Assembly (NCBI GenBank): GCA_015956445.1
Contig: WIUZ02000011.1
Coordinates: forward strand, 1,327,501-1,391,500
Direction: 5' to 3'
DNA length: 64,000 bases
Source of the DNA: Thelephora terrestris
Lineage: Eukaryota; Basidiomycota; Agaricomycetes; Thelephorales; Thelephoraceae
Shown here: positions 1,033-36,312 of the stretch, one piece after another
Position numbering within the stretch: the stretch's first letter is position 1
How the letters are laid out: the number at the start of each line of letters is the position of its first letter
Program-made: the position numbers and the translations under genes
The notes under the pieces: model-generated
Databases searched by the model: none
What the model was told of the DNA's origin: nothing
The model's input: only the letters and a program-made list of their open reading frames with translations

Positions 1033-3432
1033 ATGTCGAGCCCCCAAAGGCCCGAAATCATGATGACGCGCCCTGAATGGCCGTGGTCCTATCAGCACCG
1101 CGCTTCCCATCCTCCGACATCCACTCCATCAGCTCCGGGCTCTTCCTCTGGTACACATACCTGGGACCCACAAGCCTCTTCAGCCACATCAAGCCCAGCA
1201 ACTGTTTTTGTTTCCTCGACCGCGCCGCCAAGGCAAGCGAACAGCCTGCCATTCATGTCAACGCCAATCACCCAGCAGCATGGTATAAGGAACTGGACGT
1301 TCGCGGTGGGTGTCACTGCGTCGAACGAGTTTCCCCGAGTCAATAAAACTTCGAACAGGCTCTGGAATGGGTGGTCCCTGACGTTGAGCGGCTGTCACGT
1401 TCCATCGAGTCCGACACGGACTTGAATGGAGACGACGACCATCTGAGCGTCAAAGATGACGATCAAAGCTTTGAGATACTGAGCCAATCTCCCCTGCTAG
1501 GCGATGGCAAGTTCAAGCTTGAGATAGGTATGCGACCTGCTCTTCGCGAGAAAGCAGTACCTGGCTTAACGTCCATTCGAGCCCGTACAGCTGGCGCTCA
1601 GACACTCTCCCTCTATGTCACTTCATTAGTCGTCGGCTACTCACGCAACGATTATGAGGTATCCGCGACTGTTCTTGCTGCAATCAAAACCAACAACAGC
1701 AAAGCTGGGGAACGGGGTGCGCGCACTGAATGGGTCTGGAAAGAGTGGCAGAATGATTGGACGTTCCGACAGGAAAGTGAAGTTTGGGGTGAGGTCTGGT
1801 CAACGTGCGCGGGCCATCTTCATCTCACCCCCTAATCACAGGGTGCCCACTCCCCCCGCTCTCTGAATTATTGAAGAATTCAAAGATAAGGGAGACGGAC
1901 TCCTTTGTAATCTGTGTTCAAATACATAGCCCTGTCGGACCTTTTTACCCACAACAGCCTTCGGTCGCCTACGTCCCTCGTAATCTCTTAGATGGGCTGG
2001 AAGCATCTCTGGACAATTCGAGTGAGGACCAACTGATTCATGTTCATCATCCTTCTATTCTGATAAAGCGTGCAGATACGGGAGATGTTCAATTCATCTG
2101 TCTAGAAAGGGCGGATCCAAACGTAGCTGCACATCAACCTCCAGACCAGGACCCGGCAAGTTCACCAACGACGACTTCCTCGTCCGGGCTTGAGCCTTCT
2201 TTCTTCTCGTCTCACGCTTTTGCGAGAAAACGAGTGATCTACGCCCACTCTGACATTCTCAAACGACGGTCCGAATACTTTGCTACCATGCTTTCCTCGT
2301 CGTTCTCGGAGAATGGGGGTTCTATCCGACCCGGAGAAAGGAAGGTGTACACTGTCGTCTTGGAGGAAGCGGACTTCGTGACCGTGTATTGGTTGTTGAA
2401 ATGGATATACGCCAACTGGCTAAGCTTCAGAAGTGAAGATGATCCGAGGCTCGCAATCGAAGGTACTGGAGCTGGATGGAGTGCGAAATGGCTCAACACG
2501 AGCGGGAAGGGGGAGTGGGAGTGGAAGAGATTCACCAGGGTACAGCCTGGCGAGGACATGAGCGTTTCTAGAAGCGATGCACGAAGTGTTGCAAGCGCCA
2601 CAGAGAGCGCAGGGTCTGGCGATATCAAGGGTAAGACGAAGGGGGTTACCGAACCTCTGGTAGCCTTCTCCAACACAATCAGCTCCAGTACGACTCCCCG
2701 TACGGGCAGCACACCAAGCAGGAACGCAGGCCCTTCCTCGGGACCCTTGCCAACGAAATCACAGTCGCGACAACAGCTGACAACCAATCTCTCGCTCTCG
2801 AGACGATCGAACACCTCCACTGACGGATCAGCGAAGCCGGCGTCGGAGGTCTCCAATTCTCCCCTGCCTTCCCCTACACCTGTCAGCGCGCACCAACCAA
2901 CGACGTCTACAGGGTTCACGAACCCGCAGAGGTACAGCGCCGTCCGCCAAACTTCGGTTCCTGACCCCCACCCCCACCCCACGCCTGAACCTCTGCCTGC
3001 TTCTGCTCTGTCAGTCTACCGACTTGCGCATCGATACGATCTAGATGGACTGGCTTCTTTGGCGTTGGAGCACATGATGACGACAATCACACCAGAGTAC
3101 TGCTTCAGCCTGCTTTTGGCAAGCAGGGCCTGGGACGAACTTCATGGACTCGTTCAGGCAAGTGCTTCCCTGTCGCATGTCGTAATGGCCTAGAAGATGA
3201 CATCCTCGAGTAGGACTATGTGGTGGACAAATGGGAGGAAGTATCCATGAGTGCAGAATTTGAAAGGTGTTGCGACGAAGTTGCAGCCGGAGAGTGAGTT
3301 TTGGCGCACGTTCCATCGTTCCCAGGGACTGACATAATCGCGAATAGTTGGGGTACGGAAGGGGGGAAAACGCTGATGGCCCTGTTCAGGAGGCTGAGAT
3401 CTCCCAATGCGGTTACGTTTCCTCGAACCTAG
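1033..3432 (+). CDS. BTB/POZ domain protein with Ser-rich insert
   Basis: Five exons: 1033..1305, 1359..1788, 1842..3157, 3214..3293, 3348..3432; phases agree and give about 727 residues. BTB proteins usually dimerise and serve as substrate adaptors or chromatin factors; the partner here is unknown. Residues from about 90 to 240 form a beta-rich N-terminal region that may be MATH-like. The BTB core begins near residue 363 (YAHSDILKRRSEYFATML) and continues to LLKWIYANWLSF. About 200 Ser/Thr/Pro-rich residues then separate it from the C-terminal BTB helices (YRLAHRYDLDGLASLALEHM). Intron 3 (3158..3213) has a GC donor in the context CAG|GCAAGT, the known GC-AG class; splicing there continues the protein as DYVVDKWEEV. 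The start is the ATG in frame with the N-terminal region, so an upstream exon is possible. Confidence 0.75.
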
Positions 3433-4294
3433 GCTGAGGATTTGGGCGCATTTTGGATGGATAATAGTGTCTATGTCTGTTTGGAAGCGAATCTGTACTT
3501 TCCGGGATATACATTTGTGGATACGTCTGTGGATTGAGCAAAGTTCATGTGGTTAGTTGGAGTGCCTGAGGGGCCCCACAGTTTCACTCACTCCCGAAAT
3601 TAGCTCCTCCAAACCTGGGATCCCCTTTGTACAGTAGCACGGCATTGTCACCAGGGAGTGATGCGACCACTCATCACGTTTGCAGGATATTGAAGTAACA
3701 TACTGGCGTTATCCAATCGAGGTCACTCCCGCTGATCCCTCGTTGAAATTCTGGGGCCAGGCTTGTCAACAGTGCGGTACGGAACGAAGCCCTCGCGAAG
3801 CATCCTGTTTCAAATGCACACGATTTTTGGTAGGCTCACCTCGGATAGACCGCACAACGTGACGATAAATCCAATTACTCACGCTGTGACAGGACCCAGA
3901 CGGTGAACGCGTAGGAGGGATCCTCGCCGATAGGTGCCGGATTAAGGGTTAAACGTAAATATTTGCCAATGACTTACGAAGCGCGCCTTCGCCGGTGACC
4001 ATCCCGGCGGGCTGGGTCGATTCTCGCGGTGTCAGTGGGGCGTACTGTGGCGGAAGTACTTACTCCAAAGTGGCTGCAGGGTGTCGACATACTCAACCTT
4101 CTCTTCGAACTTAATCACCGAGAGGTGGAAGGTGACCCTACAAACCCCGACAGCGAACACCCCCACCTGGCCCCCGGGCGGAATGGTGCTCCGAGCCTGC
4201 CAGGGGCGCCGGAAAACGCTCTGATGGAGCTGATCGATCATGCGGCGCTTATTAGACACACATTTCTCTCCCTCGACCTCCGTCGTCGGACAGA
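3433..4294. other. Intergenic region between BTB gene and RRP14
   Basis: No gene recognised. A 60-codon frame at 3680..3862 carries two CxxC pairs (CQQC and CFKC) 11 residues apart, which could be a stray zinc-ribbon-like exon or chance. The rest probably holds the RRP14 promoter. Confidence 0.4.
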
Positions 4295-5496
4295 ATGATC
4301 TCGTCCACCGAACTGCTGGAATCTCTTGAACAGTACAACACCACCTTCGAGACTCTTCTGGGCCTGATTCCTGCCAAATATTATGTTCCCCGTGATGAGG
4401 AGAACGTCTCCGGGTCCAAATATCATAAGCATGTGAAAGTCTCGAAAGAGGTTACGAAAAACGCGAGACGAGCAAAGGTACGCCGAAACCGGCACTCGTT
4501 TTCGCGAGCCTTTATCCATGCTCTTCGTTCACCCCTTTCATTGCACCGAAGCTAGATCCCGACACCCACAAGCCGAAACCGCAAGAGGAAGACGCCGATG
4601 GTGAAACTATGGACGTTGATCGAGCAGACACTGAAATCACACCGATGTCGTCGGTGCAGGGGATCCAAGCTCTGAGGAGCAAGCTTCATGCCAGAATGGA
4701 TCAGCTACGACGAAACAGGGTGGGGAGCCAGCCCGAGACCAAGGATGAACTACTAGAAGAACGGCGAAAGCAAAGGGGTCTGATGCGAGATAGGCGCAGG
4801 AAAGAGACCAAAGAGAAGATACGACTGGAAAAGGAGGCGAAGGAGAAGAAGGATGGCAAGGGTGACAAAAAGGGTACCCAGCACAAGGTTTCGGCCCCTC
4901 CGAAGGTCGGTAAATTTTTCCATCTACCGAGGAGGAGGACTTATCACCGACTTGGTGCAGAACCAACTCCTTGTGCCTGAACCTGTGACAGCTGTCACAA
5001 ACGTCTCATTTTCTGCTGTCGCTGGTCCATCATCAAGCAAAAAGTCGAAGAATCTCGCGACAGCATCAAATCCATCACTGGCACTAGGCCAGCTCGCGGC
5101 CCACAAGGAGAAATTGGCGGCTCTGCCTGATGAGAAGCGGAAAGCTGCCGAAGAACACGAGAAATGGGAAAAGGCAGAGGCTCGCATGGAGGGTGTGAAG
5201 GTCAAGGACGATGAAGCGCGGCTCAAGAAGGCAGCAAAGAAGAAGGAAAAGGAGAAACAGAAGAGTCAGAAGAGATGGTGCGTGAATTCCTTGTGGACTC
5301 CAGACGTTGCCTCCCTAAATCACTTCGCTGAAGGCACGAGAGAAAAGAGCAGACGGCTGCGTCGCTGGCAGCACGCCAGAAAAAACGCACCGATAACATC
5401 GCTATGAAAGCAGAACGTCGAAAGGGTAAGAGTCGTCCAGGATTCGAGGGCAAGTCGTTCGGTGGGAAAGGAAAATCAAAGCCCAAAAATAAGTAA
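4295..5496 (+). CDS. RRP14: Ribosomal RNA processing protein Rrp14 / SURF6 family
   Basis: Exons 4295..4477, 4552..4909, 4992..5277, 5334..5496 encode 329 residues. SURF6/Rrp14 is a nucleolar, nucleic-acid-binding factor needed for pre-rRNA processing of both ribosomal subunits. Family signatures occur in order: LLGLIPAKYY near the N-terminus, the conserved block KLHARMDQLRRNR followed by LLEERRKQRG, the Lys/Glu-rich helix around LAALPDEKRKAAEEHEKW, then EGVKVKDDEARLKKA, and the closing RPGFEGKSF. The second half is almost entirely charged helix. The final splice restores KRWHERKE, matching the family W-x-E-R motif, and supports the 56-nt intron 5278..5333. Length is normal for fungal members. 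The ATG lies 15 codons before the first conserved block. Confidence 0.93.
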
Positions 5497-6148
5497 TCGT
5501 GAGATCTCGAATGAATTCTTTTCCTTCCATTTCCAAGATCGCGCCCCAGAATTCGATCATCCATGATAACACCCCCTAGTCAAAGACTTTCTTTGATCCA
5601 AGATGTTACGTGTTTTCAAGCACGGCGAGGGTTTTGCATGTGTCGGCGGAGCATCATACTACAATCGCGCCGAACACCGCCGATCTGACTCGCGACAGCG
5701 AACCCCTCGGCTGCAACAGTGCCGACCCCGCTTACGCACTCGCGGAGATGGACAATCTACGCCGCGACGCGGGCTACATTGTCAGCGAATCGCTTTAACA
5801 TCCCTCATTGACCCAGAGCTTGGTGCGGTGTTGCGCTCTTACGCATCTTCTCGGCGCTTCAGGAACGCTAGAGGCTCAAACTAAAACCTGGCGCGTGGGA
5901 TTTGGTGATGAAATGACTCAAAATGAAAGAACGCAACTAAGGCTGCTGATGGAAAATATCTGATTGAACACGCCGAAAACTCATGGGAGATAACGCCGCT
6001 TCTTTGGATACCAAATGTTCACAATCTATTTCAAACATCAGTCAAGATTCAATCTCTAGTGGTCATCTAAAAAGGTAACAACACAGCGTCTAAACTGAAA
6101 TCACAACTTGCTCATCCCGACTCTTACGTAGGACACCATGTTGCAAAC
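5497..6148. other. Convergent 3' intergenic region
   Basis: This lies between the 3' ends of RRP14 (+) and the transcription factor (-). Two overlapping short frames near 5603..5884 have no family resemblance. No terminator-like structure is evident. Confidence 0.4.
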
Positions 6149-8237
6149 CTAAATTCTGCGCGTGAGACTGACCGAACAATTTCGAGCGGGGCCAAGGAAC
6201 TCACTGAATATCGGGGCCTTCGTGCCGACCGTGACCATTATGAGCTCCAACCTGTCCAGTAAATTCACTACCTCCTCCTTCCTCGCCGCAATCGGCAATA
6301 TATCGGACGACTGTGCGGTCATGGGGTCCAGGCGTGCTATCTCTTGGATCAAGACTCGACCGGCCGTCAAAAGGGCGTTCTACCGAGAATCAAGTAAGCT
6401 ATTCCGTTAAAGGATCATCTGCACTCACAGCGATAATAGGTGGCAATATCTCCAGCCGAACCAAGTCGATGTCGTCGAACAACTTTATCATTGAGGTTGC
6501 GGCTTCCACACAGCGCACATTGGCCGCGATGTCACTGGTGGTGAAGTTGATGTTCAGATGAATGAACGCCTTATGAACTAGGGTGTGGGCTAAGATCTGG
6601 TTGCGCAGAACGTGCATGTCGATGTCTCCGGATGGAACAAGGGCCGGGAGGGTCGCGGCAAACGTTTCGGTGACTTGGGTTAACTTCTGGAGTGCCTGAT
6701 TAAAGGTTGCAAGGGCTTCTTCCTTCATGTCTATGTCTGGGAGTTAAAGGGGTTCCGAACACACGCTTTGTGACATTACCTGGTTTGAAAGACGGAACCA
6801 GGCGGAAAGCCTTCTCCATGACGGCTGCACCTTTACATATCTTCGCGAAGAGAGATGCTTCCTCAGCAGAAGTGGCCGGTGCGGGGTTGTTCAAAAATGA
6901 TTCCATGGTATTGAACCCTCGAATGTCTGAGGTGAGGAGACCCTGGAATGCTGCATTAGGTGCGAATCTGGGAGTAGGCGGTAAGATGATTCAAACCCTC
7001 TCGTATTGTGCCATATCCAATGGCCACGGCGCGTCGATGCGTGCATTTGGCACCTTTTGATCCGGCATGCCAGACGGAACGTTCATGGCAACCCCCCAAC
7101 AAGCATCGTTCACGTAAACGGACCAGAACGCGTTGATACATTCTCCTTCTTCGACCTGATCAGTGGTCGGGTTCGGGTTGGGAAGCTGGCTGCTTCGAGT
7201 CCGATGCGACCCAATGCTGATAGCGATGGAAACAGCAGCGCCACAATGATACCTCCCTTCCAAAAACCTGCCGGTCCAGAAGAAATAATTGCTCAGAAGT
7301 AATTCCGCTTGCAACGCGTGCTTGGCTTTGTGGGGATGGGTTGTGCCGAGGGCGCCCGCCACGCTCTGTATGGCACGCGATAAGAACGTCGATTCGTATG
7401 CCGCAAGTGAGTCGACTGAGGCCAGCTTGAGGCCCCAGAGATAGATCGTGTTCAACAAAGCCGGGGATGGTCGGGAGTTCGGCGCCGGTTCATAGAAGGA
7501 ATTCACGAAGCGGGGCACGGACAGAAAGAATCCGATAACGGACACATAGGGCAAGAAACTGTTGAGACTTTCCACGAGGTCCAGTAACTCCCGAATTGAG
7601 CAGAATTGGAACTCACAAGATCGGTCTAAGCTGGACAGGTGGTTCCTCGTTCTCCCACCATCTGTCCGGAAGTGCAAGCAAATCGATAGCCGGAACGGTG
7701 TGAGCCATGATAAGGGATGTGTCTAAGCGAGTTTAGCTGAAGTTGTGAGACTCAGGAGGCTGGTCCTCTTACCCCTATTATACGCGGGTTGAGGCTGCGG
7801 TTGTGCAGCGTATGGATCTGCTAGAAATACGGACGAAGACGATTCAGAGGGGTTTTCCAAGTCGCGGATGCGGTTTTCGAGGAAGGTGATGTGTTCTTCG
7901 AGGACCTGTGTCTTTGTCGGACCTGGGCGGTCGGTGTATTCGCATTCATCGTTTCTCCGACCGCATGGGCCGCAGACGGGCTTTTCACCATCACACCTCT
8001 AAGGATTGTAAGCGCCAGTCGACTACCGAAATCCTCCTGTGCAAACCATTTTCCGTTTACTGGTCGCGGGTGGCTGAGTTGCCTGTGTCTGAGACGAGTG
8101 GAAGACTTACCGGCAGTTCAAACATGCTTTTCCACGCTGCAAAGAGGGAGGGGGGGAAGTAGACTCAGAGTTATCCAAGTTCATTTTCGAGATGCTCGTA
8201 CGAAGATGCGAGTTGGCTCTGAAGAGCTGGAAGCCAT
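6149..8237 (-). CDS. Zn2Cys6 fungal-specific transcription factor
   Basis: Nine exons on the minus strand: 8202..8237, 8111..8136, 8047..8059, 7773..7998, 7617..7722, 6997..7558, 6780..6942, 6429..6736, 6149..6379; about 556 residues. The N-terminus carries a Gal4-type binuclear zinc cluster, CLNCRKRKMRCDGEKPVC, completed by CGPCGRRNDEC, followed by a short coiled-coil linker (LEEHITFLENRIRDLE). The middle part (YLWGLKLASVDSLAAYES, LSNYFFWTGRFLEGRYHCG) is the fungal-specific transcription-factor middle homology region. The basic residues RKRKM of the cluster come from a 13-nt exon; without it the Cys spacing and the frame both fail. Such factors bind CGG-containing sites. The target pathway cannot be inferred, because no metabolic cluster adjoins it. 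Confidence 0.85.
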
Positions 8238-24437: not shown

Positions 24438-26774
24438 TCAACAGTTAACGAGTGGTTTCAGGCGGATGGGCATTTGAACGCCTTTCTCGCGTTCGCCCTC
24501 GACCATGCAAGTCATGGCAATGGCGGGAACTCTCAAGATCGTTTTCCCTTCGGGGAACGACAGCTCGAAGTTTTCGAGTAATTCGACAACCAGGGAATGC
24601 AATTCGATCACTCTGCAAACCGGTGAAATCAGTCTCCGAACATCCTTCACCTTGAATCTGAAACACCGGACTCACGAGAATTTCCAACCAATACATGCGC
24701 GCGCACCGGCAGCTAAGAAACGGCGCGAGTGTGTAAGCGTTTATACAGCGATAAATTGAGGAGGCAAAACGTACCAAAGGTCAGAACGTCGCCATAAACA
24801 CCAACGGTAGGAACGCCTTCTTTCTTTTCGCGGTTGAGGTACCTCCTTGGATTGAAGACATGGGCATCGTCTCCCCATACCTCTGCGCAACTGCAGAAAG
24901 AACCACCGCAATTAATAGATGGAGCATTGGAACAACAGAGAGGAACCCACCGGTTGTACGCGCAAACGGAAGCAATGACGCTCTGGCCCTTGCTAACCGG
25001 AATTTCCGTCACGAATTGGCCTGACTTCGTCCGTATCGGGGTCAAGAGGGGAATAACATCGTCATGGCCAGCCTTCCTGACGAGGTGATAGGCGATAGGA
25101 TGGAATCTGAACGTTTCCTGCGTAAGAGATTAGTCATTAGCCCAGACGAGTCTAGTGTCGTTTTTTGCGTAAAAAACACACCTTTACGATGGCAGTCACG
25201 TACGGCATGTTTTCCAGGTCCGTCATGGAGAGGTCATCGTCGCCTCGGGCGATTGCTTGAGAACGGATGTTTGCTATTTCCTCACGACATAGTGCCTGAT
25301 ACTCGAGATCCTTGGACAACTCCCACAACAACCAGTTCATGGACGACGCGGTGGTTTCGTGCCCAGCGAGCATCAGAGTCCTGAATGAAACATTAGGGTA
25401 AGAGAGGTATGGAGGACCAGGTGAGACTCACGTCATCTGGGACACCAGTTCATCGTTAGTCATTCCTTGTTTGGGGCCCTGGGTGGAATTTGCTCGGACT
25501 GGCATCTTGTGAGACATTGTGGAACACCGTAGAAAAGACGTAATACGCACCCATCAAACTCATGACGTCCCGCCTGTTGTTTTGGCCTGAGACCATTTCT
25601 CTGCAGACGTCATCCAGTAGCTGTGATGCGACCCTGCGGGCAACTCCCATGTACCTCCGGAATACTCGAAGCTGCTTAGCCGGGAGGTATGCCATCCATG
25701 GCAGGATCCATTCAGGGAGATAGCACCACAACCCTTTGAATATGAGAGCACCTGCGGGAGGGAAAGTGACGGCATCGATGCTAAGGGTTCGGTCAGAGGA
25801 TAAATCTATCTTGATGCCATGTCCAGGGCACCCACAAGAGGTTTTCGTAAACACTCGTTAGCTCGTCCTGGTGATTGTCAAGGGTATTAAAAGGATAGTT
25901 TAACGCAGCTAGGGAGAATCCCCATCAGCGGCCCATACCGAGATAGGTGAAATTAAACTCTCACTTTCTCCAATAATGTCCAGAGTAGTGTGAGCCAACC
26001 AGGGCGCGATGTTAATAATCTTATCCTCAGATTTTGTCAAGGCTTCGCGCAACTTAGTCGAAAGCTATGCCAGGGATTAAGACCGGCCTCGTGCGCGATA
26101 AGGAATGATGGCTCACCTTTGCGGCTTTGCTTCGGAAGATTGGATAGAATTGTCGAAGTTGGCCTGGTCCAAATCCTGGGTCAATAACCCGTTTCTGTCG
26201 ATGATGATCCGCCCCTGGACGCTCTCATCAGTTGATCGCCAGAAAAAAAACCAGCTTCTCTGCTGCCTGATGGATGAGGAGAATATTTCATACCGTCAGC
26301 GTACAAGAGGCCCGTTCCCGTCAAGAACCGAATGGTCTGCCTAAAGTCCGCACGTTTAGGGTAGTTGTACCCCCGGAAGATGTGCTGTAGTGCTTTCGGA
26401 TCCGCTAGCACAAGTACGTCCTCCTAGCGACACAATTGATCCAGATAATCAGCAACGGCGACGATAGAAACGGGGGCAAATTGGAGGATTTCGTACCCCG
26501 AAGCATCCCCCTACGCGCCAGGCGTTCCCGTACTGAGCCATCCATTTGAAATCAGTCTCGCCTAGCTGCTCTTGCCACCAAATGTCCAGTTCGTTGCCTT
26601 AGACCTTTATGAGTATGACAGGTCACTGCACACAGTGATAGCAAGCTGACCCAGTAACCAAGTTGAAGGCGGTCCTTGAATGTCCTTGATAGATCTGTGG
26701 TTGCGTCGCTGGTACCATTGTACAGCAACGCATACGGCAGCAACGACCAAGGCACAGTTTTGGAATAGACCCAT
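24438..26774 (-). CDS. Cytochrome P450 monooxygenase
   Basis: Thirteen exons (minus): 26651..26774, 26497..26597, 26294..26423, 26117..26214, 25965..26064, 25836..25908, 25551..25780, 25432..25498, 25182..25380, 24951..25117, 24775..24890, 24676..24712, 24438..24612. All phases agree and give 538 residues. The N-terminus is a hydrophobic anchor (CALVVAAVCVAVQW) followed by the hinge GPPSTWLL, as in ER-bound class II enzymes. Then come the C-helix region HHRQKRVIDPGF, I-helix MLAGHETTASSMNWL, the ExxR motif (ETFR), an AEVWGDDAHVFNPRRYL segment and the heme loop FGAGARACIGW with its Cys ligand. The many-intron structure resembles basidiomycete CYP63/CYP5144-like genes, but I cannot assign the family. 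The substrate is unknown, and no biosynthetic neighbours are present. Confidence 0.9.
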
Positions 26775-27895
26775 CGAGTGTCAAAGGGGGGAGGAGAATA
26801 TACAGGAAGGATATACAGGGAGGAAACGCCAGGGACGGGTGGGGAGACAAAAACGAACTTCAACTCTGGAGTCCTATATACGATCCGAGGCACCAATAAG
26901 CGCTGTCCGTCATTTCCGAGATGACAAGTGAGACAAAAATCGCGAAAATTTGAAGGCGCCATTGTAGTGAACAGGGCATGAGTTGAGACGCGGCCAGAGG
27001 TCGTCAAATTCCAAGATTCGAAGGAACCAGTTACCCCTTCGAGAATGGTGTGCTGGGTCAAGTTCGTACCCGATGATCGATCTTTTCCTGCTACACCTCG
27101 AAGCGCCGACCTGCGAGACCTGCAGGCGTCACTTTGCCCAATTCACTCTCCAATGCATGTGCTGAACGCTGAACGCTGTCGAATTGTCCGTCCCGAGAAT
27201 CCTACGGCATCTCGGAAAACAAAAGAAGTCTCAGGTGAACTGAGACAAACAGCCCGCGCAAAAATACATTGCTTGCTGACGCTGCTCGGGGCCTCATGTT
27301 CGGGACTCGTGCATCAGTTGACCCCTCAAATTCATTGATACGCCAAGAACCCATCGGCATTGCCGAACGTTCCCCGTCGGAGAAATGCGGGGCTGGATTC
27401 CCCAATGTTTTCCTATTCGTACTCGTTTTGTAAAATTACGCGAAACTTTGAGCATCCAGGAACACCCCGTTTTCTGTTTTCATAGCCGGAAATGGTCGGT
27501 GTTCCTAATCGAGGCTCTGGGTGGGGTGGTTGGTCAGCTCGGTGGATTTCAGGATCTCTTACATCTTGCTTTATCTGTGGGGAAAACGTGTCTGCGTAGG
27601 CCACTAGCTTTGAACTAGAAGCCTTGGGAGTGAACTAGGATTTCTCAGTCGAGTCGAGTGCGAATCGAAACCGAGTGACAGATTCTCCCAGGCACCCACC
27701 GGGTGACCCCAGGCGGCCAGCAGTACTCGGCTCACAAATAGACGTAAGCAAGGATCAATGATGAGCAAATAGTTCCAAAAAGGGAACAAACTAATCATGG
27801 GCCCACCTTTGCATCCGCGCGCTCGGCTTTCCCTCCGCTGCACAGCCTCAGGAGAGGGAGAGATCTTCAAGCCTGAGTCGTTCGCTCAATCGTGA
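26775..27895. other. Spacer between P450 and transposon
   Basis: No gene recognised. The P450 promoter should lie at the left end. Only short frames of fewer than 100 codons occur. Confidence 0.5.
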
Positions 27896-27903
27896 ACTCC
27901 AGT
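27896..27903. repeat. Left target-site duplication ACTCCAGT
   Basis: The 8-bp word ACTCCAGT lies directly outside the left terminal repeat and recurs exactly at 34210..34217 outside the right one. Eight-bp duplications are typical of hAT, P and Zisupton-type elements. Confidence 0.92.
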
Positions 27904-27910
27904 AGGACCC
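27904..27910 (+). repeat. Left terminal inverted repeat (AGGACCC)
   Basis: AGGACCC here is the exact inverse of GGGTCCT at 34203..34209. The perfect match is only 7 bp; beyond it the ends share motifs rather than continuous identity. Confidence 0.85.
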
Positions 27911-27941
27911 GGGAAAGTTAGTAGAGAGCCCGGATCCAAAA

Positions 27942-28091
27942 TCCGGACGATTTGACCGATTTTTGCCGTTGAGGCCGGATCTTTTTACCACGCAAATCCG
28001 GACGGATGGACTGACAAAGTGCCATGACGCCGGAGTGGGGATCCGGACGGGGTGGGATTTTTAGACGAGTGGCCAGATCCAGCGTCCGGAC
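27942..28091. repeat. Left subterminal TCCGGAC array
   Basis: TCCGGAC occurs at 27942, 27997, 28042 and 28085. GGCCGGATC lies at 27973 and GGCCAGATC at 28071. The core TCCGGA is a palindrome. These words recur at the other end and probably bind the transposase (inference). Confidence 0.8.
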
Positions 28092-28257
28092 ACGATAATC
28101 CTCACTCAATATAATATTGGTCGATGTACAACCGGTCTCATGGTGGCCTGCGCGGGTCGACTTGACGATGCTAGATACTTTTGCCACTAAGTTTAAACAC
28201 CGCACGATTTTTCCTTTTTTTTTTTCCTTCTTTTTTTGGATATCGCATTCCTTCCCT

Positions 28258-31200
28258 ATGGATCCTATCGACCTCACCGCTAGCTCTCCATTCAATCCCT
28301 CTGCCTGGATCGGCGTTGGAAAAACCTTCTCAAATTCAATACCACCAGAAGTACTCAATGCAAAACAAGGTATCCTCGAAATCCCGAGAACCTTTCAAAA
28401 CCATCTCCCACCTCCAACTACCCGCGTTTCCGAGTTTATTCACTGGGATCTTCCCTTCCAGTCTGGCGGCCCCAGCCTCTATGACACTACGAAATGGTTC
28501 AGCAACGACATTCCTCATACAGACCCGAGTATTCTCTTTGCACGACCCATCCCACCGGTAACCGTCCTCAAAGCCCTTGATGCAGCCACAGGCCAGATAT
28601 GGATGGACGGCGGTTGTTCAATTGTTGACCCTCGTTTCAATGACGGGGCGGAGCGGTTCCCGTTTTGGGTACTGTCTCTGTGGAACGAAGTGCAGAGCTT
28701 AGTTCAGTGTCAAGAGCAATGGAGAAAATCTGTTCATTGGTTGGATTCGCTGACTCACCCGGTGGAGATTGTCGCACAGGCGAGGATCATAGTCAGCAGG
28801 CTTTCATGGAATACGCCTCTGCGTTTAAGAGGAGCTACCTCGCTTGCCCTTGCTGGGTTTCTGGGTGCATCTTGGCTCTCGGACATTCAGATTGATATGA
28901 TGATCGACTCACTACACGAGCGGGCGAAGGCCAAGGAATGCGCCAAAGAGACTATCATCGAGTCTGCCGTGTTTTCTCGGGAAATTGGGCAGATTGGAAG
29001 AGACGCAAAGAAGCCGATTTCAAGATTCCTTTTGAAGGTTGCAGACCGGGTCCAAGGTATGCGTGCAAAGGCTGTTTGGTTCCCCATCTATGTGGACGAT
29101 TGCCACTGGATCGCTGGGCGAGTTGATTTCGAGCGGCGTACCTTCGCATTCGGTAAGCTACACCCACATGCATGGCCAATGACATAAATAAAGCCCTCCT
29201 TACAACAGGTGATTCGATGATCTTGCATGGGAATGTACCCCCGCCCCAGGAAGTATTGAATGGACTCAGAAGGTGGCTCGAAGAGACGCTTGGTTGGAAA
29301 CCTGCCAATGAAGGGAACGTTCTGGCAAGGCCGTACCAAACCGACACTGTTAGTTGTTCGGTCTGTGCGTTGAACACGATCGCTCACAATGTCTTCGGAG
29401 ATCAACTTTGGGAACAATCTGGTGCTTCAGCGCATCGGATTTCCTGGCTCCTAGAATTGTACAAATACAAATGCTTGGGTGCTTCTGTAAACCCTGTAAG
29501 TGTGCTCAAGTTCCGGTCAATTGTGATCATTGTACTAATATGATCTCGTTGCAGATAGACGAACCAACCTTTCATAACACAGAACACGATGGCGGTGAAA
29601 AACGTGACGATGCGAAATGCAACGACGGTGCAGGACGTGGTGACGAGGGGATACGTGATGATGTGGCGGCACACGATGATGGGGACGCCGAATGGTTCGA
29701 TGATGGTGACGGCGAGGGGCCCCCGACAAGTGACACTGACGATCTGCTATCTACCATGTCGTCTGTGGTTTCGGCTGAGGAGGAAGAAGATGTTGGACCG
29801 GTTCGTCGCAAGCACAAGCGAAACCTGACAATCGACCCAGCGGATGAAAGGAGCACCACTCGCAAGCCATTCAGGACCAACACGGAAATCCATGAACACC
29901 GAGGTCAATCAGAGTACGTGGAAGGGTCTTGGCTGGAAACTACCTCGAACAACCCGGATACCGACGCTCTTGCTGCGGGTGCCAACGCGAACGCGAACGC
30001 TAACTCGGTGGCTCGTTGGAAGACTGGAACAAGCCGGTCAGCCGAGGCATCACGGAAGCTCCGGGACGAGGTGAGCAGTGGGACATATGTCGTTCAGGTG
30101 AAGAAGCTTGAAAAGTGGAAATCAAAAATCCGTGGAATCGACCCTGATGTTTCTTTTGACGAGAATGGCAACCCTCGGAGAGTGTTCCACCAAGTGTGCG
30201 GGCGATGGATAGTCGTCAAGGAGCCTGGCGACACGACCAGGTTTAAAGAGCACCTCCGGACTTGTGCAGCGAGGCGGGTTCCGGTTGCAGGCACGCTGGT
30301 GGGGATGGGGTGGTTCAAGAAGGTGGAGAAGGATGGAGGAAGGAAGGGAAGAGTTGACCGCGAACCAATGATGCCATGTCGTGGTGTGACAGAGTTGGAT
30401 GACCCATTGGTTGACCAATACCTGAACCGAACGGGGGCTGGTGGTGGTGGTGCTCGAAGCATCCATCTGATTTCGAACGAACGGTTTGGGAAAGATTACA
30501 AATACCTCACCAAGGGCCAAAAGGATGAAGTTGACGTCACACAAAGAGCGGAATGGGCCTGGCGAAATGATCACCTCAACCTTCGAGTTCACGCAACGAA
30601 CTGCGACGGGTTCACGTCAAGCCGTTCTCTTGCCACGTCGCTCTGCCCCAAATGCAGCTTGTTGCTCGATCTCAAAGCATTCAAAGTTGCGATTCGTAAG
30701 AAGACACCCCTGGATGAGAATGCGAAATTTGTCAACACCCGGTATATCAATCCTGTTTTGGCTCGTCTTTATGGCAAGGTGCACGGCCTGCAGAATATCA
30801 TTGGACAACAGGTGAGCGATACACTCTACCACTATGTCTGCCTCATTCACAATGATTTTTAGGGCGCAAAATCTACCCCCTGCATAAGATACACAGAAGC
30901 TGTGTTGAGTGGCAAGGCCACCAACGAAGTTTTCAACGGCTTACTGGAAGCAATGTGCACGGAACTCGATAAGGCAGATCGTGCTGTCGGGTTACAAAAT
31001 TTCAAGTATGCACCCGCATGGGATGAATTGTGCCATATCATCTACATTGTGAGCCCACGAGCGTACCGGATCCTCCGTGATTACTTCCCTGCACGCACAC
31101 AGCGGAGCTTTCGGTAACATGTTATATTTGATTGATTGCTAACACCATTACTTACATCCCTCATTTCAGCCAAAAAGAGGCCCGAGAGCCTGGTTTTCCG

Positions 31201-33984
31201 ATGGGGATATGTGACCGTACCTTCGAACTTGCTAAAACCCATCTCGTTGAGTTGAACTATCATGGACCAGTCGCTCTTGCTTGTGATGACACAAAACTCT
31301 TTGCCGCACTTCGGTTGCTCTGGAATAAAGAAGAAAAGTGCTATTTCCTTGTCGGTGCATGTAGTGGACCACTGCGGGTGCCTGATGTGGATACGGCCCA
31401 AGAAATGTTAGAAGACACTGAGATTAAGAAGGCTACCAAGGTGCGTCACCTTTTTCGGACGACTTAACATACTCACGAACAAATTTGTTCAGATCCGCCT
31501 ATGGTGTATGACAATCCCTGTTGATGGGATTGCACCAATCATCCTCGCCATGTTGCCGATTTCTGACAGCGAAAAAGCGGTCGAACTTCAACCGCACCTC
31601 ACAAAAATCCTACTCGGCTTGATCGCCAAGGAAATCCAGGTGGTCTCCTATTCCTGTGATGGTACAGAAGTTGAGCGGAAGCTACAACGGTTGATTCTGG
31701 GTGAGGCCAGTGAGCGCCTCCAGTATATAATCAAGAGTCCCCGAAAGGGGATCCCGGACACGACAGTCACTATTCCAGTGATCAACGGTCAGCCCCTGTG
31801 CCTTCTTCAAGACTCGAAACATGCTTTGAAGACCCTGCGAAATAACCTTTTCTCAGGTGCACGGTTGTTGACTCTTGGAAACCACACGATGCTCTACGCA
31901 ACGATTCGTGATCTCGCGTTTTCCAACGGGTCCCCACTCTACCGCAGAGACGTCGAGAAACTTGATCGTCAGGACGACAACGCCGCCTCACGTCTTTTTT
32001 CTGCAGACACCCTCTCATACCTCACAAACCACTACCCGGATCGTGTGGGGGAGATTGTGTATCTCTTCGTGTTTGGAGATTTGGTTGACACTTACCAGAA
32101 TCGGTCACTACCGCACCGCGAGAGGGTGAAGATGCTCCTCAGGGCAAAATACTTTCTCGATTATTGGAAACAGTTCATCTCGCATGTTGGGTATAAGAAA
32201 GCCCTTCACTTCCTATCTCGCGAGGCCACGGATATTCTACGACAAATCATCGAAGGGCTGTTGGCCTTGATCTATGTCTACCGAGATCACCTCACCAACC
32301 CTGATGACATCAACCCACTCCTCCCTTGGCTTCATTCTACAGAGCAGTGCGAACACATTTTCGGCGAAGCCCGACGAATCGTAACGGACTTTTGCTTTCT
32401 GGATTTCATCTACATGCTTCCCAAGCTACGTGTCACCATTCGCGAGGCAATATTACGTGCGCGATCGAATCCTAGGGCAACAGCGAGCGGATACAGCCAT
32501 ACACATTTTGACACGAGGGGACTTGACATCCCCACACTTGCCATGTTCCCTGATGACAGCGAGATCGACGCTGTAGCAAAAGAGGCTGCCGATGAAGCTG
32601 AGAGCTTGTTGGTGCTTCTCGGTTTGACACCGAAACAGCTGCAACGCAATCCAACAACCGTACTCCCACCAATCAATTCCCTTTTGGCGGACGAAGGAGA
32701 TGGCTGGGGTGAGGGGAACGATCGAGGTGACGAGGATGAGGATAGTGAGGGTAGAGACGATGTCATCACGTCTGAAGCCGGAGAGCTCCAGGACCTTGTT
32801 CGCAAAGCTGAGAGAAGTGAAGAACCAGGCCTTTCACACTTTGCAGGAGCAGCGGCGATGGTCACTGTCGATGAATTCATGAGGATGTGGGTTCCTCATA
32901 TGTGCTTTGGTGTTTGATTAATCACGAAACTGATTTGACGCCTAGCCAACAACTTCCCGAGCTAGATCCTGAAGAGGAGACAGAAGCCATGGCCGAAGAA
33001 TTCCTGCGGCTATCTTCGTTTGTCAAAAAACGGGTCTCCCTGCCTGCACTTGTCCTCAAGGACGATGTTCCTCAGTCATCGCTCAGTACCAGCAACCTCG
33101 AGCTCTCGATGTTGGTGGGACTGCGACGATTGCATCAAACTCGGTATGCTGCTGAAGGCGTCCGAACCCGCGACGTGGCCGAAGCCGATGGACCCGAGGA
33201 GTCTCTTCGGCATAAATTGACGCGAGAATTGAACGCACTTCTTCGAAAAGAAGAAAGCCGTGCAACAGGAACTGGCCAGAACCGCAAGCTACGCTGGCTC
33301 GAACCTGTTCAAGGCGGGACTGGTTCCGCGCCTGAAGGTGATTCCATACCGGCCCCTGCTGGAAACTCAGCAAATGCCGCAGTTGTTGCTCAGTTGCGAG
33401 CACAGAAGGTAGACTCGTTGTTACATATGTTCCATTCTTATACTAACAAGCACTCAGGCACTTGAATATCGACGTGAAAGGCTAAGTCTTGCACGAGCCC
33501 CGCTTGTCAACCTGTTGGCAACGGCGCGAGTCTCTTCTCTCTCTCCCATCACCGCCGGCGGATTTGCGTGGGTTTTCATTGAAAAACAGGTCGTCCTCGC
33601 ACAAGGCAAGTATTCCTGATCCCTACCCCCAAACCAACTCAGACACCCCCACCAGTCATCTGTTTGTACTCAAAATCGGGCGGTCAGAACAGTAAACATA
33701 GCGCAGTGACCAACTCATCGAGCGTTGTCACGGTCTCACACATTGGCGTGCAGGTTTTCGGCCATAGTCACGGCCGGTGGTTCACACACATCCCTGACGA
33801 AACTGCAAAGTTACAGACAAAGTATTTTGCCATATTACCCCCACAGAACTTCCTCCTTCTCCTACATTTGCCCGTCAAGACGAACCGAACCCAGCTCCTC
33901 GAAGTCTCGCGCGAGGATATTGAAGAGTTCGATGCAATGACGGCACAGAGTCAGAAATTAGAGACGGTCCTCTCAAAGTACTAG
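28258..33984 (+). CDS. Ulp1 protease-zinc finger-transposase protein of the transposon
   Basis: Nine exons: 28258..29152, 29209..29495, 29555..30811, 30863..31113, 31170..31440, 31493..32886, 32946..33408, 33458..33605, 33656..33984; 1764 residues. Residues ~270-380 are an Ulp1/C48-like cysteine protease with His283 (DDCHWIAG), Asp300 (FGDSM), Gln342 and Cys348 (DTVSCSVCALN). An acidic Asp/Glu/His linker follows (~395-470). A zinc-finger-like segment (VCGRWIVVKEP, then TTRFKEHLRTC) lies near 605-635 and a CPKC pair near 757. Residues ~890-1340 resemble an RNase H-fold transposase: candidate acids Asp936/937 (VALACDDTKL), Asp1043 (SYSCDGTEVE) and Glu1271/1274 (STEQCEHIFGEAR), with a helical insert between. 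Intron 8 (33606..33655) has a GC donor (AAG|GCAAGT). The start is the ATG after a T-rich leader; in-frame codons continue upstream. Transposition activity is inferred, not shown. Confidence 0.8.
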
Positions 33985-34063
33985 CGCACATAGCAAAATT
34001 ACGATGTCCTTTAGAGTTGAAAATATATACCCTGGGTCGACGTCCACCGCGGGATGGTATAAT

Positions 34064-34185
34064 GGCCGGATCCTTATCCGGACGGAAACATGGTTGCTGG
34101 TCGGAAGGCCAGATCTCAATCCGGACGAGTCGTCAGCTCGTTGATGCACCGGTCCGGACGAAATTGGCCATTTTGAGATCTGGCC
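34064..34185. repeat. Right subterminal TCCGGAC array
   Basis: TCCGGAC occurs at 34077, 34120 and 34153. GGCCGGATC lies at 34064, GGCCAGATC at 34107, and the inverse GATCTGGCC at 34177. This mirrors the left end. Confidence 0.8.
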
Positions 34186-34202
34186 TTGATCCTGGATGTC
34201 AG

Positions 34203-34209
34203 GGGTCCT
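34203..34209 (-). repeat. Right terminal inverted repeat (GGGTCCT)
   Basis: Exact inverse of the left terminal AGGACCC, directly followed by the ACTCCAGT duplication. Confidence 0.85.
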
Positions 34210-34217
34210 ACTCCAGT
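34210..34217. repeat. Right target-site duplication ACTCCAGT
   Basis: Exact copy of the 8-bp word at 27896..27903. Confidence 0.92.
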
Positions 34218-36312
34218 CCCCACTCCCCAGCCGAAACCCCCGATATTTCCCCTGGATCTTTCTTGCCAGTCACATATCGCCCTTAACACATTCCGTGCAC
34301 CGGGAAGATAGTTCTAGGCCTCAATTGCCCGGCACGTGCTTGCACGAGGCGGAAGGGAACTCATAAACGAATCTTCATACGGTGTGTCTGAGTCCGCTAA
34401 ACTGACCAGCGGAAGCACCCCAAACGTCGTGATCCCCGACCTGAATATCGGCATTCGTAACACCGGACTTATCTCACGCTGCAGCGTGGGACGTCCGGCA
34501 GGTTACATGACAATGAAATTATTCATTTGAGTGGCATCCGGCAAACGAAAATCAGCGCTTACCGTCAAGGAACCAATCAAGTGACCAATGGGGGGCGAGC
34601 GGGAAGATAACGGTTTTCCCGCCTCCGGTGAATCCTGAGTCCTGACATCCACGAGGCAAAAGAAAAACTCGGTAGACCGCTCTGACCCCGATTCAGGACA
34701 TCGCATTGTGATCGGGGTGGCATCATGCATCAGGCGTGAGTGAGTGGGCGTGGTGGGGAAACCTTCTAGACCACAGACAACCACAGACAACGGAAGCTTT
34801 TAGCTTGGCGTACAATTCAGTGATTCTCGAAGTCCCCGAGAACTGCGCGCTCTTTCAATATCCTAAATTTGCTATAGTCCTCCGAGCTTCGGAGATTCGC
34901 TCGAGCACGCCGGCTAGTATCATCATCGTCGAACGTCTTCTACTTTCTTCCCCGCATCATCCGCCTTGTATGAAAGCTCAAAGCGCAAGTCGAGTGCGAG
35001 ACAAAATAACGATCGTCATCGCGGGATTTGCTCCAGCAGCGTCGCATGCCTATCCCGTCCCAAGGAGCATGATGTCAGGCATTGGACCTGAATGGCTCGG
35101 TACCGGTCTTTCGGGACACTCTTGACGGAAGGACATCTTCGGGGTCGAGGTTGATTGGGCCCACAAAGCTGTCGCGGGACAGGAACCCTCGGTGATTACT
35201 GTATCGATCAAAGTTGATGATTGAGATAACTCACATGTCCGTTACGTTTGGCTGTGAGGATATCGTCAACGCCAGCAACCTGGAAGGGAAGAAACTGGTA
35301 AAGATTTGCTCAGGTTGCGGCTCAAATCAGGTTGCGCCCCAGTAAACCATGTGGCGGTCCCACAATGGCGGTCTGGATTGTGGAGAGGAGCTGTCTACTC
35401 ATCACAATCACCCAGTCTCCAGGCTAGAACTCGGCCATGCTTTATGATGACAATATTGCATCACCTGAGCGACGTAAACAGGTGCTTCTGGGGACTATCG
35501 AATGGAGTTATGGAGAGCGTGTGCGACGAATTGAACAGAGAATGAATCCCCATCGATCAGCAGGAAGGTTGATGACCTGGCAAGAAAGACCGTCAGCGAT
35601 TCGCCTTTCATGCAACCGCGCCAGATAACAGATATGAAAGGAAAGGGTCAGGTCGTGGCGCCGGAATCAACTTCGTAAGCTAGATCAACCGCCCTCGCGT
35701 ACATCAGTCTAGGGAGATGGTCTGCGCCACTGGGAGGTAGAGGACCCACCGCGAAGTTCGTGCCAACGGTTTTCGGTCCGGTCGTTCTTCTTTGTGGCCT
35801 GGCGATTATTCGCCCCCGCTCTAGTGGACCCTGATCCATACCTCGATGAGAAGCGTCTGCAGATAATATGGTTCTTAGGTCGGAAAAAGTCAATGACTCG
35901 TGAGACGCGCGACTCGGGGTACTTGGTGGCGCGCAAGTTACCCATCGAACGTTCTGAGCGGCCGAAGGGGTCACCGGTCAAATCCCCAAACTGACAACGT
36001 CTGCCCTTGCGCGCCACCACTAGCTGCAGCTGACCCTCAGGCGCCTCAATCTATCTAATCGTGATCACTTCCATATCCGCGCTAGCATTGAGAGTGGACA
36101 AACCTGTACAAACCACTCAAAAGAAACGTTTGTTGACAGGGACTGCTCTTAAATCTTAAAATGTGAACGTTGAACGACTAGCTGGTCTGGACCAGCTCCT
36201 CGCGCTGTCTCTTTGAAATGTGCTTCCGAAGTAGATGGCAAAGACGATCGGTGATCAGTTTGTCCTTGTTTGTTTGACCTCACTCTCCAGCCACTCCCGA
36301 CTCGTGACAGCA
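34218..36312. other. 2.1-kb gene-poor region
   Basis: No gene recognised. Only short frames up to about 130 codons, without domains. A short tandem repeat (CCACAGACAA twice) lies near 34771. The last few hundred bases should contain the uL13m promoter. Confidence 0.45.

Follow-up and report, generated by a model that had tools for sequence, protein, structure and literature searches.

This study concerns a DNA transposon and its single gene in the fungus Thelephora terrestris, lying in a stretch of 64,000 nucleotides (contig WIUZ02000011.1, positions 1,327,501 to 1,391,500 of the forward strand) that is called, as a whole, the window. Positions 27904–34209 of the window are a complete DNA transposon, which opens with the left terminal inverted repeat AGGACCC (27904–27910, forward strand) and closes with its counterpart GGGTCCT (34203–34209, reverse strand); the two ends, read inverted, match perfectly over 7 bp and agree at 13 of 20 positions. 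The element is flanked by two copies of the 8-bp target-site duplication (TSD) ACTCCAGT, at 27896–27903 and 34210–34217 (no strand assigned), which were recognized by a duplication scan and an end test. Indeed, this pair was the sole return when 25900–28300 was scanned against 33900–36300 for 7–9-bp duplications adjoining inverted ends. The ends and the perfect duplication read in an initial annotation, which had been made from the sequence alone, are thus borne out by the coordinates and by the scan of both flanks.

Between the ends lies a single gene (28258–33984, forward strand, stop included), for which two independent models give nine exons (28258–29152, 29209–29495, 29555–30811, 30863–31113, 31170–31440, 31493–32886, 32946–33408, 33458–33605, and 33656–33984) and a product of 1764 residues. 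The last intron begins with GC, and an alternative donor of intron 6 would lead to a product of 1769 residues. A dynamic-programming spliced alignment, run separately, returned the same eight introns, and a related copy in the same genome (C7:137k) encodes 1770 residues, 77% identical, with no stop, no frameshift, and eight introns whose order and phase agree with those of the window. The nine-exon gene of the initial annotation therefore holds, and the residues named there sit where they had been placed.

When the genome (40.6 Mb in 60 contigs) was searched, the transposase core of this protein was found at 10 loci (12 matches), which fall into two subfamilies: namely, subfamily A with six loci (the window, C7:137k, C5:880k, C12, C59, and a fragment at C5:90k; 70–89% core identity to the window) and subfamily B with four (C25, C58, C11:480k, and a fragment at C7:444k; 46–49%). 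Further copies, for which the initial annotation had proposed to look, are accordingly at hand in the same genome.

Domains of the fusion protein

In sequence, the domain at the N-terminus belongs to the C48-type proteases. This Ulp1/C48-type cysteine protease domain covers residues 269–353 (29062–29372, forward strand, with the intron 29153–29208 inside) and contains H283 (29104–29106), D300 (29211–29213), and C348 (29355–29357) together with the invariant Q342 and D344. In the family conservation alignment of eight proteins, among which C59 is nearly identical to C5, H283, Q342, and C348 are invariant, and D300 is Asp in six (Glu in B25 and Asn in B58). The Pfam family PF02902 reached the whole window protein with an expectation value (E) of 0.0029, below the cut-off, and a 262-residue piece of it with 0.00011, above the cut-off; at E≤10 it matched six of seven family members (best 8e-11). 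Furthermore, the family protease profile retrieved yeast Ulp1 (1euv) from the PDB at E=1.4e-8, followed by the chlamydial ChlaDub2 (1.3e-5) and SENP1 (approximately 0.001). The C48-like triad that had been proposed at the N-terminus (His283, Asp300, Cys348) is thus supported. In the genome as a whole, PF02902 has 12 matches, eight of which lie outside these transposon loci.

The middle of the protein holds a putative zinc finger, H606-x2-C609 ... H627-x3-C631 (30188–30265, forward strand), which is BED-like by our reading, and three further conserved Cys residues, C744, C758, and C761 (30602–30655, forward strand). The string H606-x2-C609-x2-W ... H627-x3-C631 and the three Cys residues are invariant in the family, a pattern that suggests zinc binding, and the HCHC region has no match in Pfam. 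It is followed by a DDE/RNase H-like transposase region at residues 890–1340 (31091–32551, forward strand, with the introns 31114–31169 and 31441–31492 inside), in which D936 is encoded at 31285–31287, D1043 at 31658–31660, D1094-S-K-H1097 from 31811, D1186 at 32087–32089, and E1274 at 32351–32353. The window positions invariant across the eight family proteins number 289, and D936, D937, D1043, E1271, and E1274, which had been put forward as candidate acids of a DDE-type enzyme, are invariant as well. Conservation is partial over the C-terminal 270 residues, to which no domain is assigned.

No credible Pfam family was found for the core, nor any credible PDB chain even by profile. The single PDB match of the family profile A1 (E=1.5) was taken as chance, and so was a tRNA-methyltransferase Pfam match (two of seven core members, best E=0.0028), since it misfits the DDE motifs and the window member has no such match.

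The fusion protein is under purifying selection. Between the window and the C7 copy, the ratio of nonsynonymous to synonymous substitution rates (dN/dS) is 0.16 overall, 0.20 for residues 130–400, and 0.08 for the core; against C12, dS of residues 130–400 is saturated. The protein starts (MDPIDLT, MATIDLT, MNPIDLT) and ends (..KY) are alike in the five subfamily A copies examined. It might be argued that the protease and the transposase are two adjacent genes whose fusion is only apparent, but we consider this very improbable. The linker at residues 400–560 is certainly the least conserved part of the protein (dN 0.35, window versus C7), and introns are placed differently or added in the C5, C12, C59, and B copies, so that the join is less certain there; in the C7 copy, however, neither the reading frame nor the introns between protease and transposase have changed. 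A genome search with the window protease domain, furthermore, returned eight loci (13 matches), all of them core loci and all with the protease ahead of the core, while the domain was not found at the two core fragments, C5:90k and C7:444k.

Copies, termini, and movement

The copies differ in their state of preservation. The C5 copy has one frameshift and the C12 copy one stop, and the protein of C59 is 99.4% identical to that of C5. In subfamily B, the copies B25, B58, and B11 align to the window protein over nearly the full length at 34–35%. The introns placed by the aligner in the B copies, and some of those in C5, C12, and C59, are unlike the introns of the window, most of all in B11 (12 introns, two of approximately 510 bp); the gene models of these copies are therefore provisional. 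Two stretches of C11 are short derivatives with an internal deletion, in which the left end and the 3′ coding part are preserved: both ends and an 8-bp TSD are present in the first (L056, C11:64900-66700), and the second (L057, C11:701550-703450) has an intact left end and a truncated right end. Their retained 3′ exons (residues approximately 1460–1764) may encode a short protein. With either the core or profile A1 as the query, no relatives were found in IMG/VR or in GTDB genome contigs, and a piece of the core found none in plasmids.

Two further structures were observed among the copies. The C59 copy carries a 2.9-kb insert (element positions approximately 4084–7018; L012/L040) with the junctions GTCAGCG...CCCTGAC, which is perhaps an element with terminal inverted repeats nested in the transposase exon. 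In the stretch L039 (C7:439100-449000), at approximately 1637–7537, a core fragment of the B type, whose identity to the C58 copy is 98.6%, is enclosed by inverted repeats several hundred bases long; these have the ends CTGTACT and share an AACAGGT flank, as if a structure with long terminal inverted repeats, or a satellite-like one, had captured the fragment.

Eight sequences entered a test for paired ends (the window, C5, C12, C59, C11:65070, B25, B58, and C7), and seven of these have both ends and a perfect 8-bp duplication, each of a different sequence: ACTCCAGT in the window, CATACGGT in C5, GTTCTTCA in C12, ATTCTGAC in C59, GCTAAGCC in C11:65070, AATCAGGC in B25, and TCATCACC in B58. All seven open with AGGACCC, those of subfamily B included. 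Given that one perfect 8-bp duplication is expected by chance at approximately 1.5e-5 per copy, the paired ends and duplications are beyond chance. The C7 copy lacks paired ends because its left end is lost, the first bases being replaced by a run of A; at C7:141937 (L009), nearly 30 A stand where the left end of this otherwise open copy belongs. The derivative at C11:701731 failed the end test, its right end being truncated, and no ends of the AGGACCC/GGGTCCT type were found at C11:480k and C7:444k. The inverted ends of B25 and B58 are identical over the 20 bp tested (approximately 30 bp by eye), and end remnants occur at C13:635929, C12:2442931, and C59:220890, where one side was examined. 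A search with a terminal pattern was discarded as chance; it gave five matches versus six in the reversed control, and the pattern does not fit even the family's own ends.

The initial annotation had also proposed a search for empty sites. Querying the genome with the joined flanks of seven sites indeed returned empty counterparts for three insertions, although none for that of the window: the C59 site is found at C45 with 200 of 200 positions identical and a single ATTCTGAC; for B25 the counterpart is at C1 (98% identity, one AATCAGGC), and for B58 at C58:1433394 (84% identity, with two mismatches among the 8 bases). More such matches exist for the B25 and B58 sites, both of which fall within repeats. 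The sites of the window, C5, C12, and C11:65070 had no counterpart spanning the join in this genome. Moreover, the C5 and C59 copies are nearly identical (dS 0.011) and occupy different sites, so that the movement is recent. The identical 200-bp site occurs without the element at C45:2297929-2298128 and with it at C59:1709953-1719420; for some regions, the assembly may thus include either both haplotypes or a duplicate.

Near the ends, we also noticed a repeated heptamer. TCCGGAC occurs eight times in the window element, and seven of these are close to an end, no more than 190 bp from the left or 135 bp from the right one: four at 27942, 27997, 28042, and 28085 on the left (span 27942–28091; element positions 39, 94, 139, and 182) and three at 34077, 34120, and 34153 in the right subterminal region (span 34077–34159; element positions 6174, 6217, and 6250). 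C5 has seven, C12 eight, and the C11:65070 derivative seven, at places nearly the same as in the window. Subfamily B instead has GTCCGAAC, a motif chosen by eye, at positions 37 and 81 (in B58 also 125) and three times near the right end, at distances from the end nearly those of TCCGGAC in the window. We infer that the heptamers are candidate transposase-binding sites, with one base changed between the subfamilies (TCCGGAC in A, TCCGAAC in B).

Affinity of the transposase core

The ends, the 8-bp TSDs, the empty counterparts, the internally deleted copy with the same ends, and the one fusion protein are all observed. We favor reading the element, with a probability of roughly two in three, as an autonomous and recently active cut-and-paste DNA transposon whose one protein joins a P-like core to a SUMO-type protease. 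The P transposase has the triad D230/D303/E531, a D(2)H motif at D339, and D444 in contact with guanosine triphosphate (GTP) (PMC8230255, PMC7776569), and the signature of the P superfamily is described as D-D-D(2)H-E (PMC8230255). In our block alignment, on which the pairing with P rests, D936, D1043, D1094-x2-H1097, D1186, and E1274 correspond to D230, D303, D339-x2-H342, D444, and E531 of P, and the signature residues D936, D1043, D1094-x2-H1097, and E1274 are invariant in all eight family proteins. Furthermore, the string D-x2-H-x2-K-x2-R-N is identical in the P transposase (6p5a) and the eight family proteins, with no occurrence at 246,130 control six-frame positions; E-H-x-F-x3-R, for which no control count was made, is also common to P and all eight. 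The spacings between successive signature residues in P and the window are 73/107, 36/51, 105/92 (D(2)H to D444), and 87/88 (D444 to E531). Among the residues contacting GTP in P (K385, K400, V401, S409, F443, D444, N447, and D528; PMC7776569), of which K385 lies outside the block alignment, D444 is kept and S409 is kept in seven of the eight. As for the last acidic residue, which had been left between Glu1271 and Glu1274, E1274 is the better catalytic candidate, whereas E1271 falls on the GTP-contacting D528 of P.

Profile comparison adds a faint signal. When profile A1 was aligned to P with hhalign, the match was colinear with E=0.0053, and its score of 28.6 compares with at most 24.9 in 200 shuffles and at most 22.1 among 35 control open reading frames (ORFs), from which ORFs without an alignment were dropped.

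Several results nonetheless weigh against a P-like core with a SUMO-type protease. The signal from hhalign is weak (probability 6.8%) and fragile; Hermes, a hAT transposase, scores above P with three of the four family profiles tried (Hermes versus P: 20.5 versus 28.6 with A1, 22.4 versus 21.0 with another master sequence, 20.2 versus 18.6 with A alone, and 24.8 versus 20.3 with B alone). Reversed P, moreover, scores up to 25.4 and is ahead of P itself with two of the four profiles. The profile statistics would thus indicate a faint relation at most, without favoring P over hAT. The motif match is support rather than a test of significance, because the blocks were chosen after the alignment had been seen. 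The first two Asp residues are farther apart than in P (107 versus 73), and several GTP contacts are changed, D528 to Glu, N447 to Gln, K400 and V401 to Asp, and F443 to Val or Ile. None of the Pfam models of P (TNP-like_RNaseH_N, GBD, and RNaseH_C) matched the protein or seven core members at E≤10; P itself matches all three. The P superfamily has an RNase H fold into which a helical domain is inserted between beta5 and alpha4. In a structure model from the single sequence, the order of strands and helices would be compatible with an RNase H core that carries a helical insertion, but at a predicted local distance difference test (pLDDT) value of 37.8 the model proves nothing about the fold. 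Finally, ChlaDub2 is the next profile match after Ulp1, so that the removed tag may be SUMO or a different one. In the whole genome, PF21788 and PF21787 gave no match at E≤1, and the controls gave none either.

One competitor is a deep branch of hAT, a superfamily that makes 8-bp TSDs, has a C(2)H motif, and prefers the target nTnnnnAn; the element would then have a DDE core with a helical insertion domain and an acquired protease. The 8-bp TSD and the scores of Hermes fit this idea, but the second Asp is followed by D(2)H and then KxxRN as in P, and not by the C(2)H of Hermes (RINCSSHLLSN); neither the protein nor the core has a hAT match in Pfam, and only one of the seven TSDs fits nTnnnnAn. 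We therefore regard a hAT origin as unlikely. It is the motifs, and not the profile statistics, that would choose P over hAT, and the initial lead of either P/THAP9 or hAT is narrowed to P at the level of motifs, without statistical support for P over hAT. The TSD does not help in this choice: 8 bp in all seven copies with both ends is as expected of the P superfamily, but this length is common to hAT and Zisupton and hence not specific to P.

Zisupton belongs, with Dileera and Kyakuja, to KDZ, and an origin among these elements was also considered; we find it hardly credible. Zisupton makes 8-bp TSDs (PMC12730594) and the genome is rich in KDZ matches (125 to the KDZ family PF18758), yet at E≤10 PF18758 does not hit this protein, the family profile gives individual ORFs of KDZ loci no score above 17.8, and the ends are unlike the CA..TG of Kyakuja (PMC12730594). 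The initial annotation was right not to place the element in KDZ.

A superfamily of its own, RNase H-like and kin to P and hAT only as these are to each other, is possible but doubtful. It would agree with the core having no credible Pfam or PDB match, profile included, with the lack of a match to a THAP domain, and with AGGACCC termini common to two subfamilies at 46–49% core identity; on the other side stand the complete P signature string and a spacing close to that of P over the 3′ half. We accordingly call the core nearest to P at the level of motifs and stop short of assigning it to the P superfamily.

Possible mechanism and relation to known systems

In the favored reading of a P-like transposase fused to a SUMO-type protease, the putative zinc-binding region (HCHC and three Cys) would bind the iterated TCCGGAC 40–190 bp inside the ends, and the DDE RNase H core (D936, D1043, E1274), with a long insertion within and built like that of the P element and THAP9, would cut at AGGACCC...GGGTCCT and insert the cut ends into the two target strands with an 8-bp offset. 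The Ulp1-like domain at the N-terminus might free the transposase of SUMO or of a different ubiquitin-like tag; alternatively, its targets may be host silencing or repair factors at the element. A further, tentative proposal is that the element represents a separate superfamily, sister to P, with its own deSUMOylase in the transposase and with heptamer arrays (TCCGGAC to TCCGAAC) that changed together with the protein. If so, the transposon would move by altering the SUMO state of its host where its own ends lie.

P elements with 8-bp TSDs were reported in rusts in 2011, when they were unknown in other Dikarya (PMC3164196), and Kojima (2025) described TET-bearing fungal transposons with cores of KDZ, hAT, IS3EU, Harbinger, EnSpm, ESTA, Plavaka, and Helitron (PMC12730594); the parts of the latter paper that were covered contain no description of this transposon. 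Ulp1 and OTU domains are documented in unrelated transposons such as Ginger1 and Mutator, where their role in transposition is suggested but not shown (PMC2836005). In the open-licence literature, no P-like transposase fused to Ulp1 was among the matches listed, which is not proof of absence. The suggestion of an undescribed fungal family is thus supported in part, since neither Pfam nor the PDB has a credible counterpart of the core and no description was among the open-licence papers listed, but is qualified by the P elements on record in rust fungi (PMC3164196); what appears to be new is the fusion of protease and transposase. Here the two make one conserved protein; because the gene appears complete, the end architecture is compact, and both recent copies and empty counterparts are available, the role of deSUMOylation in transposition becomes testable through a single Cys change. 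Beyond the P elements of rusts, the element would represent a further P-like lineage, and the D(2)H/KxxRN/EHxF pattern provides a handle for elements missed by current family libraries.

In comparison with known systems, the P element and THAP9 (6p5a, PF21787–PF21789) share with this transposon the 8-bp TSD, repeated subterminal sites, D-D-D(2)H-D-E, KxxRN after D(2)H, and EHxFxxxR at the last Glu. This transposon is distinguished from them by its 1764-residue protein, its AGGACCC ends, its longer first spacing, some changed GTP contacts, and the lack of any P-Pfam or THAP match, the protease and the HCHC motif being found in place of the THAP domain. The rust elements P-1_PSt, P-1_MLP, and P-2_MLP, which their authors assigned to the P superfamily, are likewise from Basidiomycota with 8-bp TSDs, and their description mentions no protease in the parts covered (PMC3164196). 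Hermes (8edg/2bw3) resembles the element in its 8-bp TSD, its DDE core with an insertion domain, and weak profile scores near those of P, but has C(2)H where the element has D(2)H and belongs to hAT, to which Pfam gives no match here. KDZ elements are common in this genome, and Zisupton makes TSDs of the same length, but they differ in PF18758 and, for Kyakuja, in the termini. Ginger1 and the Ulp1-bearing Mutator elements also have a Ulp1 domain within a transposon protein; in Ginger1, this domain is C-terminal and beside a Gypsy-type integrase core (PMC2836005), whereas here it is N-terminal and accompanies a core that is probably P-like.

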